Origin: a virus
IMG/VR virus record: IMGVR_UViG_3300010354_000269
Span: 1 to 35,267 of that record
DNA: 35,267 bases
Direction: 5' to 3' (one strand)
Every line of letters begins with the position of its first letter. Positions within the stretch are counted from its first letter, which is position 1. Shown here in pieces: positions 8,551 through 21,815 of the stretch. The notes beneath the pieces were generated by a model. That model had not been told where the DNA came from. It did not search any database and worked only from the letters and a program-made list of their open reading frames with translations. The translations under genes were made by a program, and so were the position numbers.

Positions 8551-8622
8551 AGCCCCCGATCTGATTCGAACAGACGACCAATGGTTTACAAAACCATTGC
8601 TCTACCACTGAGCTACAAGGGC
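8551..8622 (-). tRNA. tRNA-Thr (anticodon TGT)
   Basis: A 72-base cloverleaf. The acceptor is GCCCTTG paired with CGGGGGC using G-U pairs, the D arm is GCTC/GAGC, the anticodon arm is ATGGT-TTTGTAA-ACCAT giving TGT, and the T arm has the loop TTCGAAT. The discriminator is T and CCA is not encoded. It reads ACA, a codon favoured in AT-rich phage DNA. It starts three bases after the stop of the 89-aa gene. Confidence 0.93.
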
Positions 8623-8895: not shown

Positions 8896-8935
8896 AAAGG
8901 TTCCGTACTTTTGTGTATTTAGAGGGTGAACCTCA

Positions 8936-9018
8936 TGGGCATGGCGGGACTCGAACCCGCATGAGCAATGCTCGACAAATTTTAAGTTTGTTGTGGATAC
9001 CAATTTCACCACACGCCC
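8936..9018 (-). tRNA. tRNA-Leu (anticodon TAA)
   Basis: An 83-base class II tRNA with a long variable arm (CGAGCATTGCTCAT). The acceptor GGGCGTG pairs with CATGCCC, the anticodon arm ACAAA-CTTAAAA-TTTGT gives TAA, and the T loop is TTCGAGT. The discriminator is A and CCA is not encoded. It reads UUA. It begins only two bases after the U-tract of a terminator hairpin. Confidence 0.94.
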
Positions 9019-9020
9019 AT

Positions 9021-14972: not shown

Positions 14973-17870
14973 TTATCCGTAGTTTAAACTATCCCACAAA
15001 TCATTATTATTATTTACACCAATAGAAACTGGCAGTATTCCACCACCTTCTCCATAGTTACTACCAACTTCAACAGGAACTTCCACAGGAACCTCGATTA
15101 TGATTGGTTCTGGATCTTCATATGACATATATGATTTGAGAATTGAATCAATTTGTGGTTTATTTTCTGCAATATTCAATTTCTCCAACATTCCAGGAGC
15201 TAATTTGTCCAATACTGCTGTCGTGTCAGCATCAAATACAAACTCAGGTCCATTTTCACCGAGCATGGCAAAAGTTCTTTTCTTAACTCTACCACCTTTT
15301 GCTAGTGCAACGTGAACGTGATGATAATGTTGGGCATTAGTAGAATTTCCCCAATAATCTAATCCAACTCTCTTTCCATTAGCAATACCAAACCCAAGAG
15401 GTGTGTAGATTAATTGGGTAAGTGATGACCCATAGTTTTGTACAAGATGTTTTGCAAATGCCAATTGCTGAGGGGTTCCACTACCTACAGAGTCATTGGA
15501 ATAATCCCTTGCTCTATTTTTTCCATGATAACCCGAATCTCCTGGACGATAATCACTAGTCAATTGTAGTCCGAATTTTTTAGCAATAGAAGTGAATTGA
15601 TCAACAGCACCAACTTTTCCAGTTCCTAATGGACCAGATACTCCAGGTCCAGTTCCTCCAGAAGCAGTTGCTCCAAAGTTAGGAACTGATCCTATTTTAT
15701 TTGCAGTGTAATTATTGTACCATCCAAAATAGTTGTCTCCAGACTTTCTTTGAATTCCTCCAGAAACACCATACCCCCTAAAATCAGTTCTACCTTGAAT
15801 AAAGTCTCTTGCATTTTTTTGAAGAGTTGGATCAAGAAGAGCTGCTGCAACTTTTTTCATTGCATCTGCAGATTGACCTGCTGCTACCCCAGCACTTGCA
15901 GCATCCTTAATTGCATACCATTCTGAATTTGGTTTTCCTGTAGATCCCGGTTTGGGAAATTTCCAAGTTGGTTCATATTGCATTTGACCAAGTATCAAGT
16001 CTTTAATAGTCTTTCCAGAATATGCTCCAGATGCAAGTCTATTATAAATTGATTGTGCAACATCTGCCCAACCTTGAGGATCACCATCTTCTCTAGATGC
16101 TATAGCAACAAGAGTCCAAAAGTCAGCATCTCCACCTTGAATATTAATTAAGTCTTGAGGTCCAGGTGCAGCAGCGCCTGGAACACCTGCTGGTTTTTCT
16201 CCAGGTTTTATGCCAAGTTTTTTCATCAATTCATTTATAGCATCATCAACTTCAGATGAAACACTTTCTTCAAAAGAACGAGCAATGATATTACTCATAT
16301 CATCACCCAATAATAAATTTTTAACGTCAACTTCACCTCCACCAACAAACCCCAAATCAGATTTAAATGTTCTTGACATCCAACTGTTTAAGGACATTCC
16401 TACATTTTTATAATCAAGTTTACTTGGTCTATCTCCTAGCAAAGCTTTAGCTGCAATAGAAAATATTGGACCAAAAAAAGGAGTTCTACCTAGTTTTTTA
16501 TTTTGCTCTTCTATTAATTTTATGTCATCACTCGCATATATTTTTTCTAATTTTTTTGCACCACCAACATCTTTTCCGGGTTTTATTTTTTGAGGTGTGA
16601 TAGTAACAGTTCTTTTTGATTTTGTTTTCTTTACAGTTCTTTTTGCAGGGCCACTAACAAGTTTACCACCACGAGTTACTGAACCTCCACCAGCTTTTTT
16701 GGGAGCATTGTCTTTATTGGTTGGTTTTTTATTCTCGAAAAACATTTCATAAAGTTTTCCACCAACTTCACCACCAACAAATCCACCAATAGCAGCACCT
16801 ATAGGACCACCGATCGCAGTTCCAACAGCACCAACAAGCAAAGATCCAACTCCACGAAATGCTGCCTTTCCAACAGGATCTCCAAGAGCCCAAGATAATG
16901 CAAATTCAGTAAGACCACCAATAATGGGAATGTTTCTGAGAAGTGGTTTTGCTAATCGAAGCAATGCTTTAGTTCCACCTTTACGAAGAGATCCAACTAA
17001 AGCATTTCTGCCAAGTTTAGTTAAAGCACCTCTAGTTGCATCTTTACCAATATTTTTTAAATTTTCTTTTCCAAATCTTTTTAAAAATTGTTCTTTTCCA
17101 TATCTTTTAAAATATCTTTTTTGTGTATCTTTACCAACTCTTCTACCACCTCTATCAAGTCCTCTTTGCCTAACTCCACCCCTACCAAATCCTTCATCAC
17201 TCATTGCACTATCTGCTGCAAGCATTCCTGCAATCACAGCATAATTCATAAAGGTTGTTAATCCAGATGCAAGTTTATCAAAATTTTTAGATCCTTCCTC
17301 ACCTGCAATATTTTTAACAAAACCCTTAGTTGCATCAACTGCTTTATATCCCCAATCAACAAATGTGACTAAACCATTTAGCAATTTGCCACCAATGTCA
17401 ATTATAAAATCAAAGGCAGGTGCTGCAATTTTTAAAAAGTTTAGAATTTGTGGACCATAATCTATTAGTCGATATAGTATAAAACCAGTTAAGGTTTTCA
17501 TTATAAAATCACCTATCCTAGAAAACAGTGTCTTTCCAGGCAACGATGGTAATTTTAAATTTCCTTTTGATTTAGTTTCCTTTGGTTCTTCTAATTTTTC
17601 CTCTTTCTTCTGTCTTTTATCATCTTCTAATTGCTTTTTCTGTATTGCATTCTGATTTTTATTTTGTATTACTAGACTTCCAAGAATTTTATTAACATCA
17701 ATTACCTTTTTATTAATACTGTAAAATACTTCTTTTCTACTTTCAGTAGACTTAATTATAGAAGAATTTCCATTATCAACTTTTTTTGGTGCTAAAAATT
17801 TATCTGCTTTGACAATTGCAGAACTTGATTTTTTAGCAGCAGGTAATAACTTGGATATATTAATAGCCAT
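14973..17870 (-). CDS. Tail tape-measure-like protein with two cell-wall hydrolase-like domains (965 aa)
   Basis: Residues 1-110 are charged and coiled-coil-like. Residues 110-390 are hydrophobic helices with Gly/Ala-rich membrane-like segments (GAVGTAIGGPIGAAIGGFVG). Residues 583-720 resemble the SleB/CwlJ Hydrolase_2 family (WTLVAIASREDGDPQGWADV, YNRLASGAYSG, YFGWYNNY). Residues 755-856 resemble M15 or VanY D-Ala-D-Ala peptidases (SDYRPGDSGYHGKNRARDYS, then HHVHVAL), giving the HxxxxxxD and HxH metal pattern. After this comes LGENGPEFVFDADTTAVLDK, a C-terminal feature of tape measures. The protein starts on the stop of the 737-aa gene (TAATG). I infer an inner-tail or hub protein that opens peptidoglycan during injection, replacing the missing gp5 lysozyme. 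Confidence 0.65.
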   Translation of the reverse strand: MAINISKLLPAAKKSSSAIVKADKFLAPKKVDNGNSSIIKSTESRKEVFYSINKKVIDVNKILGSLVIQNKNQNAIQKKQLEDDKRQKKEEKLEEPKETKSKGNLKLPSLPGKTLFSRIGDFIMKTLTGFILYRLIDYGPQILNFLKIAAPAFDFIIDIGGKLLNGLVTFVDWGYKAVDATKGFVKNIAGEEGSKNFDKLASGLTTFMNYAVIAGMLAADSAMSDEGFGRGGVRQRGLDRGGRRVGKDTQKRYFKRYGKEQFLKRFGKENLKNIGKDATRGALTKLGRNALVGSLRKGGTKALLRLAKPLLRNIPIIGGLTEFALSWALGDPVGKAAFRGVGSLLVGAVGTAIGGPIGAAIGGFVGGEVGGKLYEMFFENKKPTNKDNAPKKAGGGSVTRGGKLVSGPAKRTVKKTKSKRTVTITPQKIKPGKDVGGAKKLEKIYASDDIKLIEEQNKKLGRTPFFGPIFSIAAKALLGDRPSKLDYKNVGMSLNSWMSRTFKSDLGFVGGGEVDVKNLLLGDDMSNIIARSFEESVSSEVDDAINELMKKLGIKPGEKPAGVPGAAAPGPQDLINIQGGDADFWTLVAIASREDGDPQGWADVAQSIYNRLASGAYSGKTIKDLILGQMQYEPTWKFPKPGSTGKPNSEWYAIKDAASAGVAAGQSADAMKKVAAALLDPTLQKNARDFIQGRTDFRGYGVSGGIQRKSGDNYFGWYNNYTANKIGSVPNFGATASGGTGPGVSGPLGTGKVGAVDQFTSIAKKFGLQLTSDYRPGDSGYHGKNRARDYSNDSVGSGTPQQLAFAKHLVQNYGSSLTQLIYTPLGFGIANGKRVGLDYWGNSTNAQHYHHVHVALAKGGRVKKRTFAMLGENGPEFVFDADTTAVLDKLAPGMLEKLNIAENKPQIDSILKSYMSYEDPEPIIIEVPVEVPVEVGSNYGEGGGILPVSIGVNNNNDLWDSLNYG

Positions 17871-20083
17871 TATTTTTTAATCCCCAATGTTGCTTGAGCT
17901 CTACGAGTCCCTCCTGGCATTGATGCACTTCCTGATGGAACATTTTTTGCAGTGCTTGGTTTACTTCCACTTCCTCTAGCACCACCCATTCCACCTCCAG
18001 CAGGACTGTATTTTGGTTTTGATTTTACTGGTGGTTTTACTCCAGATTTTAATCTTTGCTTTTTAGCAAGAACTGCTGCGTTATAGTCTTTATAGTATTT
18101 TCCATCAGAAGAGGAATAATAACGACCAATAGATGCAGCACCTGCTTGCTTTACTCTTGCGGCAGATGCTGCATCTTGTGCAGCAAGTTTCCTTCTCCCC
18201 TCTTCTCCACCAAACATCCTAGTTCCGAGTCTACCGAGTTGACCCATAAATCCACCACGTTTAATATCTTCTCTTGTTTGTGCCTTTGCTTCTGCAGTAT
18301 ATCTAATTCCTCTACCAGTTCTTGGTCCTGCCCCTTGAGAACTTAACTTATCCAATCTTTGTTGAGATGCAAGAGAAGTCATTCTTGATCTTTTTGCTGC
18401 CATTGCATCATTATAATTTCCATAAGTTTTTTGATCTGAGGAAGAATAATACTTTCCTTTCGAAGCAGCATAGTCAATTCTCGCAAGCATCCTTGGTCCA
18501 CCAAACATACCACCTGGACTAAATGGATTTACATATGGTCTAGATCCTCTAATTCTAGATGCTCGTTCATGGGCAATATCTCTTGCCCCCAAAAAACGAG
18601 AAACATATGGTTTATATGATGTATTTGACCTTTTTGCAAGAAATTCTTTTTTAAATTGTGAATAGTTATATGAAGGATCAGAAATTGCCTTATAGTATAA
18701 TGGATGGTCAATATTATTAAAAACATTATTCCATTCTTTTCTAATGGCAGATTCTGAAACTTTACCAGAAACATTAGTACTTGATTTCACCAATCCAGAT
18801 TTAGATTCCAATTTAGATTCGGATTCTTTTGGTTTTAGTCCAACGTACCCACCACCTACGGCATACATTTCATTATCAACTACGGTTGGGACATTTGTTC
18901 CCCCACCGGCAGCATTCATAGATTCTAAAGTATTAATTCCAAACTTTTCAACAGCACCTTTTGACATTACAAATTCACCATTAGTCAACCAAGCTGGAAC
19001 TCTATCAACCCCTCCAGGTCCTCTAACTTGACCACCATTATTAAACTGTTGTCTTGGGAAGACTAAACCACCACCATTAAACATTGCACCAAGTCCACCT
19101 TGTAGAGCCTGCTCTTGTTGCAATTGAGGAACTCCAGGAGTCTTACCAACTTCTTTTGGAGTAACGATAGATGAATCAGTCTTTTTCGATTCGTCTCGAT
19201 ATTCTTCATTTCTTTGAGACATTACATATGCACCTATTCCTGCTGCTGCCGCAGCTGCTGCAGCAAGAACAGGACGTTTTCCAATGAATTTAAGCAAATT
19301 CTTTGTTGCACTCAAAAGCATTGGAACAGAACGAATTACAATTCTACTAATTGTTCTTACAAACTTACCAAACCTAGTTCCAAATAGTATATAAGTTCCA
19401 AGTAAAGCAGGCCACCAATCTTTTAAAAATCTAACAATACTATCAACTTTTTTGTGATTCTCTGGATTACCAAACCACTCAACTATTTTAAATAATACTC
19501 TTCCAAGAATTATTTTACCAATAAAATCAAATAGTCTTTGAAATAGAGACTTTACTGGAGCAATGATTTTATCAGCAATATTTTTAATTGCTTGAAAAGG
19601 TTTTTTCTCTAATTTTTCTTCTCTTTCCTTTCTTTTTTTATCTTCTTTTTCCTTTTTATCTAATTTACTTTTTTCTTTTGCAGATTCATCTAATCCAATA
19701 AGATTGTCTCGGATATCCCTTAAAAGATCATCAATATTCTTTAAAACTTCAGTATCGTCTTCAGAATCTTTTGGCGTAATTGCGGCAGGAGGAAGTGCTA
19801 ATTGTTTTTGAGATATTCTAAAAGACTTTCCAATCCCAAGTTTATCTGCAGTGATGGGACTCTTTTTCTTTACAGAAAATCTACCTTTCTTTCCTCTTAT
19901 TCTTTTTCTTTCATTTGCTAGTAAAGCAAGTTCTTCATCTGGCATTTTATCTTTGCCAAATGAACCTTTAACCATTGCTTCTTTAAGCAGAATCAAATAT
20001 GTATCATAGTCAATATCGAACACATCCTCCAACTCAAGAAGTCGGAGGATTCTTACATCAATTTGTTCGTTACCAACCGCCAT
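17870..20083 (-). CDS. 29: Tape-measure-like tail protein (737 aa)
   Basis: Begins with an acidic helical region (MAVGNEQIDVRILRLLELED), followed by a Lys/Glu coiled coil (about 135-160), hydrophobic helices (180-290, with eight consecutive Ala) and then NGGQVRGPGGVDRVPAWLTN-GEFVMSKGAVEKFG (349-381), a motif found near the end of many tape measures. The C-terminal half is basic, Gly/Ser-rich and holds two copies of a YYSSSD module (543-568, 653-679). Position between the gp26/chaperone ORFs and the hub genes fits a gp29 counterpart (T4 gp29 is 590 aa). The start overlaps the small upstream ORF by 14 bases. Confidence 0.65.
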   Translation of the reverse strand: MAVGNEQIDVRILRLLELEDVFDIDYDTYLILLKEAMVKGSFGKDKMPDEELALLANERKRIRGKKGRFSVKKKSPITADKLGIGKSFRISQKQLALPPAAITPKDSEDDTEVLKNIDDLLRDIRDNLIGLDESAKEKSKLDKKEKEDKKRKEREEKLEKKPFQAIKNIADKIIAPVKSLFQRLFDFIGKIILGRVLFKIVEWFGNPENHKKVDSIVRFLKDWWPALLGTYILFGTRFGKFVRTISRIVIRSVPMLLSATKNLLKFIGKRPVLAAAAAAAAGIGAYVMSQRNEEYRDESKKTDSSIVTPKEVGKTPGVPQLQQEQALQGGLGAMFNGGGLVFPRQQFNNGGQVRGPGGVDRVPAWLTNGEFVMSKGAVEKFGINTLESMNAAGGGTNVPTVVDNEMYAVGGGYVGLKPKESESKLESKSGLVKSSTNVSGKVSESAIRKEWNNVFNNIDHPLYYKAISDPSYNYSQFKKEFLAKRSNTSYKPYVSRFLGARDIAHERASRIRGSRPYVNPFSPGGMFGGPRMLARIDYAASKGKYYSSSDQKTYGNYNDAMAAKRSRMTSLASQQRLDKLSSQGAGPRTGRGIRYTAEAKAQTREDIKRGGFMGQLGRLGTRMFGGEEGRRKLAAQDAASAARVKQAGAASIGRYYSSSDGKYYKDYNAAVLAKKQRLKSGVKPPVKSKPKYSPAGGGMGGARGSGSKPSTAKNVPSGSASMPGGTRRAQATLGIKK

Positions 20084-20240
20084 TCTGTTTCTGCTTAAGT
20101 TCTTCTTCTTCTAAATGATTTTTCAATAAAGAAACATAAATGTCTCTTTCCCATGGCATCATATTTTCAATCTCAGTCAATGAGTATTTATGATACTGCA
20201 TCAAAGAAAAATTTAAGTTAAAATAATTCTCAAGATCCAT
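20070..20240 (-). CDS. Tail assembly chaperone C-part, 56-aa ORF reached by frameshift
   Basis: Reads MDLENYFNLNFSLMQYHKYS, LTEIENMMPWERDIYVSLLK, then NHLEEEELKQKQNGGW. The MPWERDIY motif is of the type found in the T portion of tail-assembly chaperones, where a short domain binds the tape measure. No ribosome binding site precedes its possible starts (ATG at 20249 or 20240). Its frame is exactly the -1 frame of gp26, open from the slippery site onward, so the main product is probably a gp26 fusion. It overlaps the tape-measure gene by 14 bases, like lambda T and H. If translated alone it would be an independent small hub protein. Confidence 0.65.
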   Translation of the reverse strand: MDLENYFNLNFSLMQYHKYSLTEIENMMPWERDIYVSLLKNHLEEEELKQKQNGGW

Positions 20241-20247
20241 ATGGATC
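20234..20247 (-). other. Palindrome downstream of the slippery site
   Basis: GATCCATATGGATC is a perfect 14-base palindrome that can fold as a five-pair stem with an ATAT loop. It begins ten bases after the slippery heptamer. It could help pause ribosomes, although it is short and the spacing is at the long end. Confidence 0.35.
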
Positions 20248-20251
20248 ATGC

Positions 20252-20971
20252 CTATGCGAAAAAACTTGAAAGACCCTCCAAGACAACTTCACTTTCAACT
20301 TGTGTTACTGGATTTTTTACTTTAACTTTATGAGAAAGTTTGGGCATGGTTTCGAAGAACTTTTCAATTTCTTTAAACTGTGAAGAATTCATCTGTTCTA
20401 AAAACTCAAGAAGTTCTTTTTTAGTTACATCATTAGCACTCCAAACTTCTTCTTCATTATAAATCTTATCAATACACGATGCAACAAGATCAAAAGATTG
20501 TTCCATCGTATTCTGAGATGCGAAATCAAAATTATTCTTAATAAATTGCTCTAGAGATGGATATCTCATCTCCATTATAAGAGAATCATCAAGTTTAATT
20601 CTCTTATCATGTTCTTCATTCTTTTGAATCTTAATATCATCCAAAAGGATACTTACACTTGCTGTGGTTTCTTCATCATCAGGGCAAATTAAATTAACTT
20701 CAATCTCTTCCCCAACAGACTTACCCCTAATGTTTAGAAAAAGAAACTCAATATCAAAAGTTGGCAAACTTTCAACTTTGATATTTTTAGTTTGAATGCA
20801 ATTCTTAATTACTGTTTTAATTGCAGTTGTAATCTGTTTAGTATCTTCAGATTCTAATGCAATTAAAAGAAGTTTTTCTTCTTTAACTAAGAAAGGTCTG
20901 TATTGAATTGTTTGTCCTGTAGATGGCAACTCAAGTTCATAAGTTGGCGTAGAAATCTTTGGTAATGGCAT
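20252..20971 (-). CDS. 26: Baseplate hub subunit/assembly protein gp26
   Basis: A 239-aa protein (T4 gp26 is 208 aa) that starts MPLPKISTPTYELELPSTGQ and continues with a strand-helix pattern YRPFLVKEEKLLLIALESED and FLFLNIRGKSVGEEIEVNLI, which I recognise as the T4_baseplate (gp26) family. The middle is a beta domain (CPDDEETTASVSI) and the end is helical, finishing LEGLSSFFA. It is followed by the frameshift site and precedes the tape-measure gene, so a chaperone role in tape-measure and hub assembly fits. A TAATAAATA late box lies 29 bases before the ATG. Confidence 0.8.
   Translation of the reverse strand: MPLPKISTPTYELELPSTGQTIQYRPFLVKEEKLLLIALESEDTKQITTAIKTVIKNCIQTKNIKVESLPTFDIEFLFLNIRGKSVGEEIEVNLICPDDEETTASVSILLDDIKIQKNEEHDKRIKLDDSLIMEMRYPSLEQFIKNNFDFASQNTMEQSFDLVASCIDKIYNEEEVWSANDVTKKELLEFLEQMNSSQFKEIEKFFETMPKLSHKVKVKNPVTQVESEVVLEGLSSFFA
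20258..20264 (-). other. Putative -1 ribosomal frameshift site T_TTT_TTC
   Basis: The last codons of gp26 are AGT TTT TTC GCA TAG, so the heptamer is T_TTT_TTC in the zero frame, matching the X_XXY_YYZ rule. After a -1 slip, reading continues CGC ATA GGC ATG ATC CAT ATG GAT without a stop into the 56-aa ORF. Phage P2 uses the close relative T_TTT_TTG for its E+E' chaperone. Confidence 0.65.
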
Positions 20972-20999: not shown

Positions 21000-21008
21000 T
21001 ATTTATTA
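21000..21008 (-). promoter_or_regulatory. Late promoter box TAATAAATA fused to a stop codon
   Basis: The minus strand reads TAATAAATA starting with the TAA stop of the tube-initiator gene and ends 29 bases before the gp26 ATG at 20971. It has the same sequence and architecture as the box at 13625-13633. Confidence 0.55.
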
Positions 21009-21815
21009 AGCAATATTAGAATTGATTTGATTCAATTCCAATTGTGTTCCTGCTCCAATATTGAATTGAGAGTTTCCTTGGTTTGGTGCAATATTTAAAG
21101 GCAATCCATTGCCAGTAGATAATGCACCAGTTCCACTGAGTCCTGGTAAATCGGGTGCTCCTACTGCAGAAAATTGAGAAGGTTCTGCTGGTTTGGAAAT
21201 TTCCGTTAAATTATCTGAGAAATATCTATCGTAAGTAAAAGCTACTGTGCATTTTAACAACTGAGAACTATCATAAGAAACTGGCATTGAATTTATTGAT
21301 ATTGGAAAAGCATTGACAAACGTATATGTCATCTTACCTTTCATATCTCGTTCGAATTTTGTAATGTAAATTGTAGTTTTATAGTCTTTTGGATATCTTA
21401 CTCGATAATTATTATTGGTTTTTGGACCAGATGACAATTCTCCAGATATTTGTTCACCAACTGCATATCTTATCCATGCTTCAAATGCTCTAATTATCGT
21501 GTAGTTTGAATCAACATAGAATGTAAAGTCTGCTCTATCATCATAGAGTCTTCTGTAAGCGTGTCTTTGAGTCACTCCAGTAAAATCATTATTAAGTTCA
21601 TGTGTTGCAATAGATGATCCTGGAAGATTTGCTTCAGAACAAGATAATATTAGTAATTCATCAATCAAAGTTTTACTAATACCATTATACCCCATCTGAT
21701 CTTTGATAGTATCTTTCAACGCAAAACTACACTCAAAATGCGAAGTAAGAGCTGGTTGAAGTATTTTACTTTTAATATTATCAATGGATCTTTTTGTAGG
21801 ACTTGGGGCTCCCAT
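21006..21815 (-). CDS. 54: Tail tube-family protein, probable baseplate tube initiator (gp54/gp19 family)
   Basis: A 269-aa protein with the tail-tube fold signature: FECSFALKDT near the start, GSSIATHELNNDFTGVTQRH, YDDRADFTFYVDSNYTIIRA-FEAWIRYAVG, then YRVRYPKDYKTTIYITKFER and YTFVNAFPISINSMPVSYDS, ending with the strand LLKCTVAFTYDRYFSD. After this comes a Gly/Ala/Asn/Pro-rich tail (about 215-269). T4 gp54 (320 aa) and gp19 (163 aa) share this fold. Next to gp26 and divergent from gp4/gp48/gp53, it is more likely gp54 than the major tube protein. The gp19 alternative is not excluded. Confidence 0.65.
   Translation of the reverse strand: MGAPSPTKRSIDNIKSKILQPALTSHFECSFALKDTIKDQMGYNGISKTLIDELLILSCSEANLPGSSIATHELNNDFTGVTQRHAYRRLYDDRADFTFYVDSNYTIIRAFEAWIRYAVGEQISGELSSGPKTNNNYRVRYPKDYKTTIYITKFERDMKGKMTYTFVNAFPISINSMPVSYDSSQLLKCTVAFTYDRYFSDNLTEISKPAEPSQFSAVGAPDLPGLSGTGALSTGNGLPLNIAPNQGNSQFNIGAGTQLELNQINSNIA

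Follow-up and report, generated by a model that had tools for sequence, protein, structure and literature searches.

The window (the whole stretch of 35,267 nucleotides analysed here) is DNA of a T4-like marine cyanophage. On its minus strand, gp26 is followed by a small open reading frame, annotated as "gp51" in relatives, and then by a long ORF. The gp26 product and its extension into the small ORF are best read as the two forms of a tail assembly chaperone (TAC), TAC-N and TAC-NC, as in the G/GT pair of phage lambda. The features of the region, with the evidence for each in brackets, are as follows.

21006-21815, minus strand: tail tube-like protein upstream of gp26 (PF23849, E 3.4e-18; phrog_45, E 2.2e-38)
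20252-20971, minus strand: gp26, read as the short form TAC-N, 239 aa (PF12322, phrog_150, predicted N-terminal domain)
20274-20279, minus strand: Shine-Dalgarno-like GGAGGG, 9 nt 5' of the heptamer, or 10 nt from the end of its GGAGG core (4-mer conservation, codon bias)
20258-20264, minus strand: slippery heptamer T_TTT_TTC in the zero-frame register (T_TTT_TTN in 214/214 non-redundant junctions)
20252-20254, minus strand: zero-frame TAG stop codon of gp26, 3 nt past the heptamer (sequence)
20070-20258, minus strand: -1 extension, read as TAC-C ("gp51" of relatives), RIGMIHMDLENYF...NGGW (phrog_634, C-terminal end of phrog_150; open in relatives)
20234-20247, minus strand: short hairpin GATCC-ATAT-GGATC (GATCCATATGGATC), 10 nt 3' of the heptamer, a candidate stimulator (compensatory changes, folding z)
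17870-20083, minus strand: 737-aa ORF, probable tape measure protein, with its ATG at 20083 and a 14-nt overlap with the -1 extension (weak tape-measure PHROG matches; position)

The gp26 gene ends in AGT TTT TTC GCA TAG. The first-pass annotation had proposed a -1 slip at this heptamer, with a frame that stays open to 20070 and adds the small ORF segment. The minus-strand sequence bears out both the zero-frame register and the open frame: slippage would yield ...SSFF followed by RIGMIHMDLENYF..., up to the TAA at 20070-20072, and the whole fusion has 300 aa. The short form is predicted to end in ...SSFFA and the frameshift product to read ...SSFFR at the junction; the corresponding predicted tryptic marker peptides are NPVTQVESEVVLEGLSSFFA and NPVTQVESEVVLEGLSSFFR. 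Over the 9,578 codons of its 28 main ORFs, the window contains five in-register T_TTT_TTN sites, one of which, at the end of gp26, is T_TTT_TTC. Only this site is close to a stop codon past which the -1 frame is open.

The 14-base overlap between the small ORF and the next gene was also found as described. That gene had been called the tape measure gene; the adjacency holds, and the identity is probable only, given the weak PHROG matches. Two consecutive long ORFs of the minus strand, 14973-17870 (965 aa) and 17870-20083 (737 aa), both have tape-measure-like matches, and at 0.15 nm per residue their predicted lengths are about 145 nm and 111 nm, respectively; the tape measure function may lie in either ORF or be divided between them. 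The 737-aa ORF has matches in 18 phage records, none of them covering 80% of the ORF, and its relatives are annotated as lysozyme, endolysin or transmembrane protein; gp26 has matches in 679 records.

The gp26 protein matches PF12322 (T4_baseplate) with E 5.4e-74 and 249 bits (family cut-off 24.5) and phrog_150 with E 2.5e-79. The matches of the small ORF are phrog_634 (gp51, 'baseplate hub assembly catalyst'), with E 2.7e-28, and also the C-terminal end of phrog_150 (positions 242-280 of 282). The gp26 protein was modelled with AlphaFold2 (mean pLDDT 85), and the model was set against solved structures. The top three VIA-align 2 matches were the HK97 tail assembly chaperone 2ob9 (Z 7.9, 84 residues), 3fgx (Z 7.8) and YqbN 3klu (Z 7.3), the latter two of which we take to be prophage chaperone relatives; values of Z below 8 are not decisive alone. 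The top matches all fall on the N-terminal 86-96 residues of gp26, and the next row has Z 4.9. A Foldseek search of the model against the PDB gave no match at E <0.001, and the highest probability was that of the HK97 TAC. The gp26 sequence profile retrieved nothing relevant from PDB chains, and an NCBIfam search produced nothing useful. The structure comparison supports the chaperone assignment made in the first-pass annotation.

The names used in T4 and cyanophage annotation suggest instead that gp26 and gp51 are parts of the baseplate hub, the frameshift then producing a hub variant, and a review of T4 mentions a degree of genetic evidence that places gp26 in the hub (PMC3004832). However, that review classes both proteins among the chaperones of hub assembly and states that gp51 is missing from the particle. 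The structural match to the HK97 TAC, the position before the probable tape measure ORF, and a prior TAC assignment, known to us through papers citing Vladimirov et al. 2022, also speak against hub parts, which we consider unlikely.

For comparison with relatives, viral contigs were scanned with the gp26 proteins of the window, pf16, Cr30, S-PM2, Melnitz-2, S-N03 and KVP40 (the Cr30 and KVP40 scans gave two loci each), and annotated regions from eleven named phages and T4 were added. This resulted in 339 usable junctions, 214 of them non-redundant once near duplicates were removed, from cyanophages, marine relatives, KVP40, PX29, Moby, Cr30 and pf16. As expected for the proposed frameshift, T_TTT_TTN is in register in all 339 junctions and thus in 214/214 of the non-redundant set, and the -1 frame is open 158-203 nt beyond the gp26 stop in 212/212 complete extensions. 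The heptamer is T_TTT_TTC in 171 non-redundant loci, T_TTT_TTT in 29, T_TTT_TTA in 13 and T_TTT_TTG in one. The window itself encodes tRNA-Thr(TGT) and tRNA-Leu(TAA) on the minus strand, at 8551-8622 and 8935-9019; the tRNA-Leu, by its TAA anticodon, would decode the TTA that ends the T_TTT_TTA variant of some relatives.

Codon choice at the junction is narrow. In the clade of the window the Phe codons are TTT and TTC in 75/75 loci, and the preceding residue is serine in 73 of the 75, encoded only by AGT or TCT. At other xFF sites within gp26, T_TTT_TTN occurs in 4/244 cases; codon usage is a fairer baseline, because the residues preceding those sites are different. It predicts NNT TTT with a chance of about 0.42 at each locus, and the product over the loci, about 10^-81, is a guide and no true probability, since the loci are related. 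A simple chance origin of the heptamer was rejected on the ORF count over the window and the conservation data. Judged by this conservation, the frameshift signal is under selection.

The small ORF could instead be a gene of its own, whose translation begins by reinitiation or coupling past the gp26 stop. It is annotated as such in S-PM2, S-N03, PX29, KVP40 and others, and the start given in the KVP40 and Moby annotations overlaps the gp26 stop. The window has two ATG codons here, at 20249 (59 aa) and 20240 (56 aa). As the first-pass annotation had stated, neither has a ribosome binding site: the nearest Shine-Dalgarno-like element is GGAGGG (20279-20274), some 25 nt ahead of the first ATG, and its spacing is that of a frameshift stimulator, too distant for normal initiation at either codon. 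The relatives point in the same direction. No ATG is present within the first 11 codons after the slip in 85 of the 214 non-redundant loci, and 59 of them have no ATG, GTG or TTG there, so that a separate "gp51" cannot start in this region; the residues are conserved nonetheless. An ATG with a Shine-Dalgarno-like 4-mer 5-14 nt upstream occurs in only 11/214 loci. Moreover, separate translation leaves the invariant slippery heptamer unexplained. Some separate "gp51" may be made, as an ATG is present in the extension of 129/214 loci; as an account of the locus, however, a separate gene is very unlikely.

Two further elements flank the heptamer. Firstly, a Shine-Dalgarno-like 4-mer (GAGG or AAGG) is found 9-10 nt upstream of it in most of the 214 loci, and just 5' of the heptamer the predicted pairing to the tail of the 16S rRNA is at its strongest, about -6.4 kcal/mol, compared to about 0 further upstream. 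At Glu-Gly sites before the heptamer, GAG is used in 114/166 cases, compared to 30% elsewhere, and where GAA is used the next codon is GGG or GGA in 48/52. This codon choice indicates selection on the Shine-Dalgarno-like element.

Secondly, the palindrome at 20234-20247 does lie ten bases past the heptamer, as had been noted, and may fold into a hairpin. Its 5-bp stem occurs in the window clade as GATCC/GGATC, GGTCC/GGACC and GGTTC/GAACC. The mean number of paired positions in this clade is 4.29 of 5; swapping arms among the loci gives 3.96, and synonymous redraws give 4.04; the observed value was reached by 0 of 2,000 arm swaps, and the top redraw gave 4.25. The hairpin is imperfect in 30/75 loci of the clade. 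Over the 214 loci, the 14 codons after the slip have stronger predicted folding than recodings that preserve the protein (mean z -2.41), compared to -0.50 and -0.85 in two windows further downstream. The value is -2.95 in the window clade and -0.63 in the Melnitz-2 group. The S-PM2-like and S-N03-like loci and one marine group have different stems near the same place; for instance, marine loci (L114-L172) have a GCCTCT...AGAGGC stem starting about 6 nt past T_TTT_TTC, which takes the form GCCTGT...ACAGGC in one of them (L158).

Runs of T are also sites where the polymerase might slip, resulting in some mRNAs with one U more or fewer. Melnitz-2, Cr30, pf16 and others do have runs of 7-8 T. However, the run is exactly T6 followed by C in 171/214 loci, which is short for polymerase slippage, and this mechanism gives no reason to expect a Shine-Dalgarno-like element spaced like a ribosomal stimulator; as a general explanation we regard it as extremely unlikely. 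Within the Melnitz-2 group, one locus (L083) and its relatives have runs of eight T at the junction and little downstream structure. The combination of 8-T runs and weak structure may therefore reflect a different stimulator or some transcriptional slippage in this group.

Taken together, these sequence data make it very probable that gp26 and the "gp51" ORF form a single gene that is read with a programmed ribosomal frameshift of -1. From the elements described above we infer that slippage occurs, at a low rate, and that it serves tail assembly. Most ribosomes would read gp26 to the TAG codon and produce TAC-N. A minority would pause at T_TTT_TTC; 9-10 nt behind, the Shine-Dalgarno-like element would be paired to the tail of the 16S rRNA, and most lineages would also have a small hairpin ahead. 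Both Phe-tRNAs would then re-pair one base back, and the ribosome would run on to 20070, producing the 300-aa TAC-NC. If the parallel with lambda G/GT holds, the tape measure protein would be coated by many copies of TAC-N and few of TAC-NC, the latter recruiting tail tube subunits through its C-terminal part. A more specific proposal is that the frameshift in T4-like TAC genes is driven by a three-part signal of the dnaX type, consisting of a Shine-Dalgarno-like element under selection (9-10 nt upstream), an invariant poly-T heptamer and, at a common position, hairpins that differ between lineages, and that in many marine lineages "gp51" has no start codon at all and exists as a frameshift product only. 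We give this proposal an even chance.

The situation in T4 is different. Genes 26 and 51 are separate and lie on opposite strands. T4 gp51 covers positions 13-280 of 282 in phrog_150 and thus joins, within a single frame, a gp26-like domain to the gp51 tail; the match of T4 gp26 is limited to positions 14-235 and, judged by this profile, T4 gp26 is the short form. A BLASTP comparison of the window gp26 with T4 gp51 was uninformative (E 0.03), and the relation was settled by the PHROG profile. T4 gene 26 ends in GAG TTC TTT GAG; it no longer has the heptamer, and its -1 frame is closed. Vladimirov and colleagues reportedly found frameshifting conserved in several T4-like groups, T4 using genes 26 and 51. 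Papers citing Vladimirov et al. 2022 ascribe to it short and long chaperone forms in T4-like phages, T4 26 and 51 among them. In the PRFect paper it is cited for some T4-like phages in which a short TAC gene and a long, fused one take the place of frameshifting, and in the Adele paper (PMC12846349) it is credited with poly-T slippery sequences in T4-like TAC-N genes. G/GT frameshifting has been described as widely conserved 'except T4' (Atkins et al. 2016, PMC5009743). The T4 data fit the published view that T4 replaced the frameshift by two separate genes.

The TAC frameshift in T4-like phages is thus already reported, at least as the citing papers describe it, and the present case is not new in kind. 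The first-pass annotation had known of no described frameshift for gp26 in this phage group, which does not hold for T4-like phages at large; for cyanophages, our searches of a collection of open-access papers found none on a TAC frameshift. The anatomy of the stimulators and the loss of start codons may be fresh detail. Annotation treats gp26 and gp51 as two distinct hub genes in hundreds of cyanophage records. The conserved stimulators offer a ready-made set of variants in which to measure how signals of this kind control the proportion between two products.

The locus can be compared with several known systems. The likeness to lambda gpG/gpGT is one of layout: a short form with a rare -1 extension, and an ORF directly before the tape measure gene; in the window, the extension is predicted and the tape measure gene probable. 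The slippery site of lambda differs from the T_TTT_TTC of the cyanophage. The likeness to E/E+E' of P2 is in the type of site, a poly-T slippery heptamer in a myovirus TAC gene, T_TTT_TTG in P2, whereas gp26 of the window belongs to PF12322. E. coli dnaX has the same order of elements, a Shine-Dalgarno-like element about 10 nt upstream, a heptamer and a downstream hairpin; however, its heptamer is A_AAA_AAG, and its product and purpose are unrelated. Finally, the TAC locus of phage Adele (Vandenendeviridae, Andersonviridae; PMC12846349), compared here by motif and frame, also has an open -1 frame and a conserved poly-T motif at the 3' end of TAC-N, although the motif is given there as GTTTTT.
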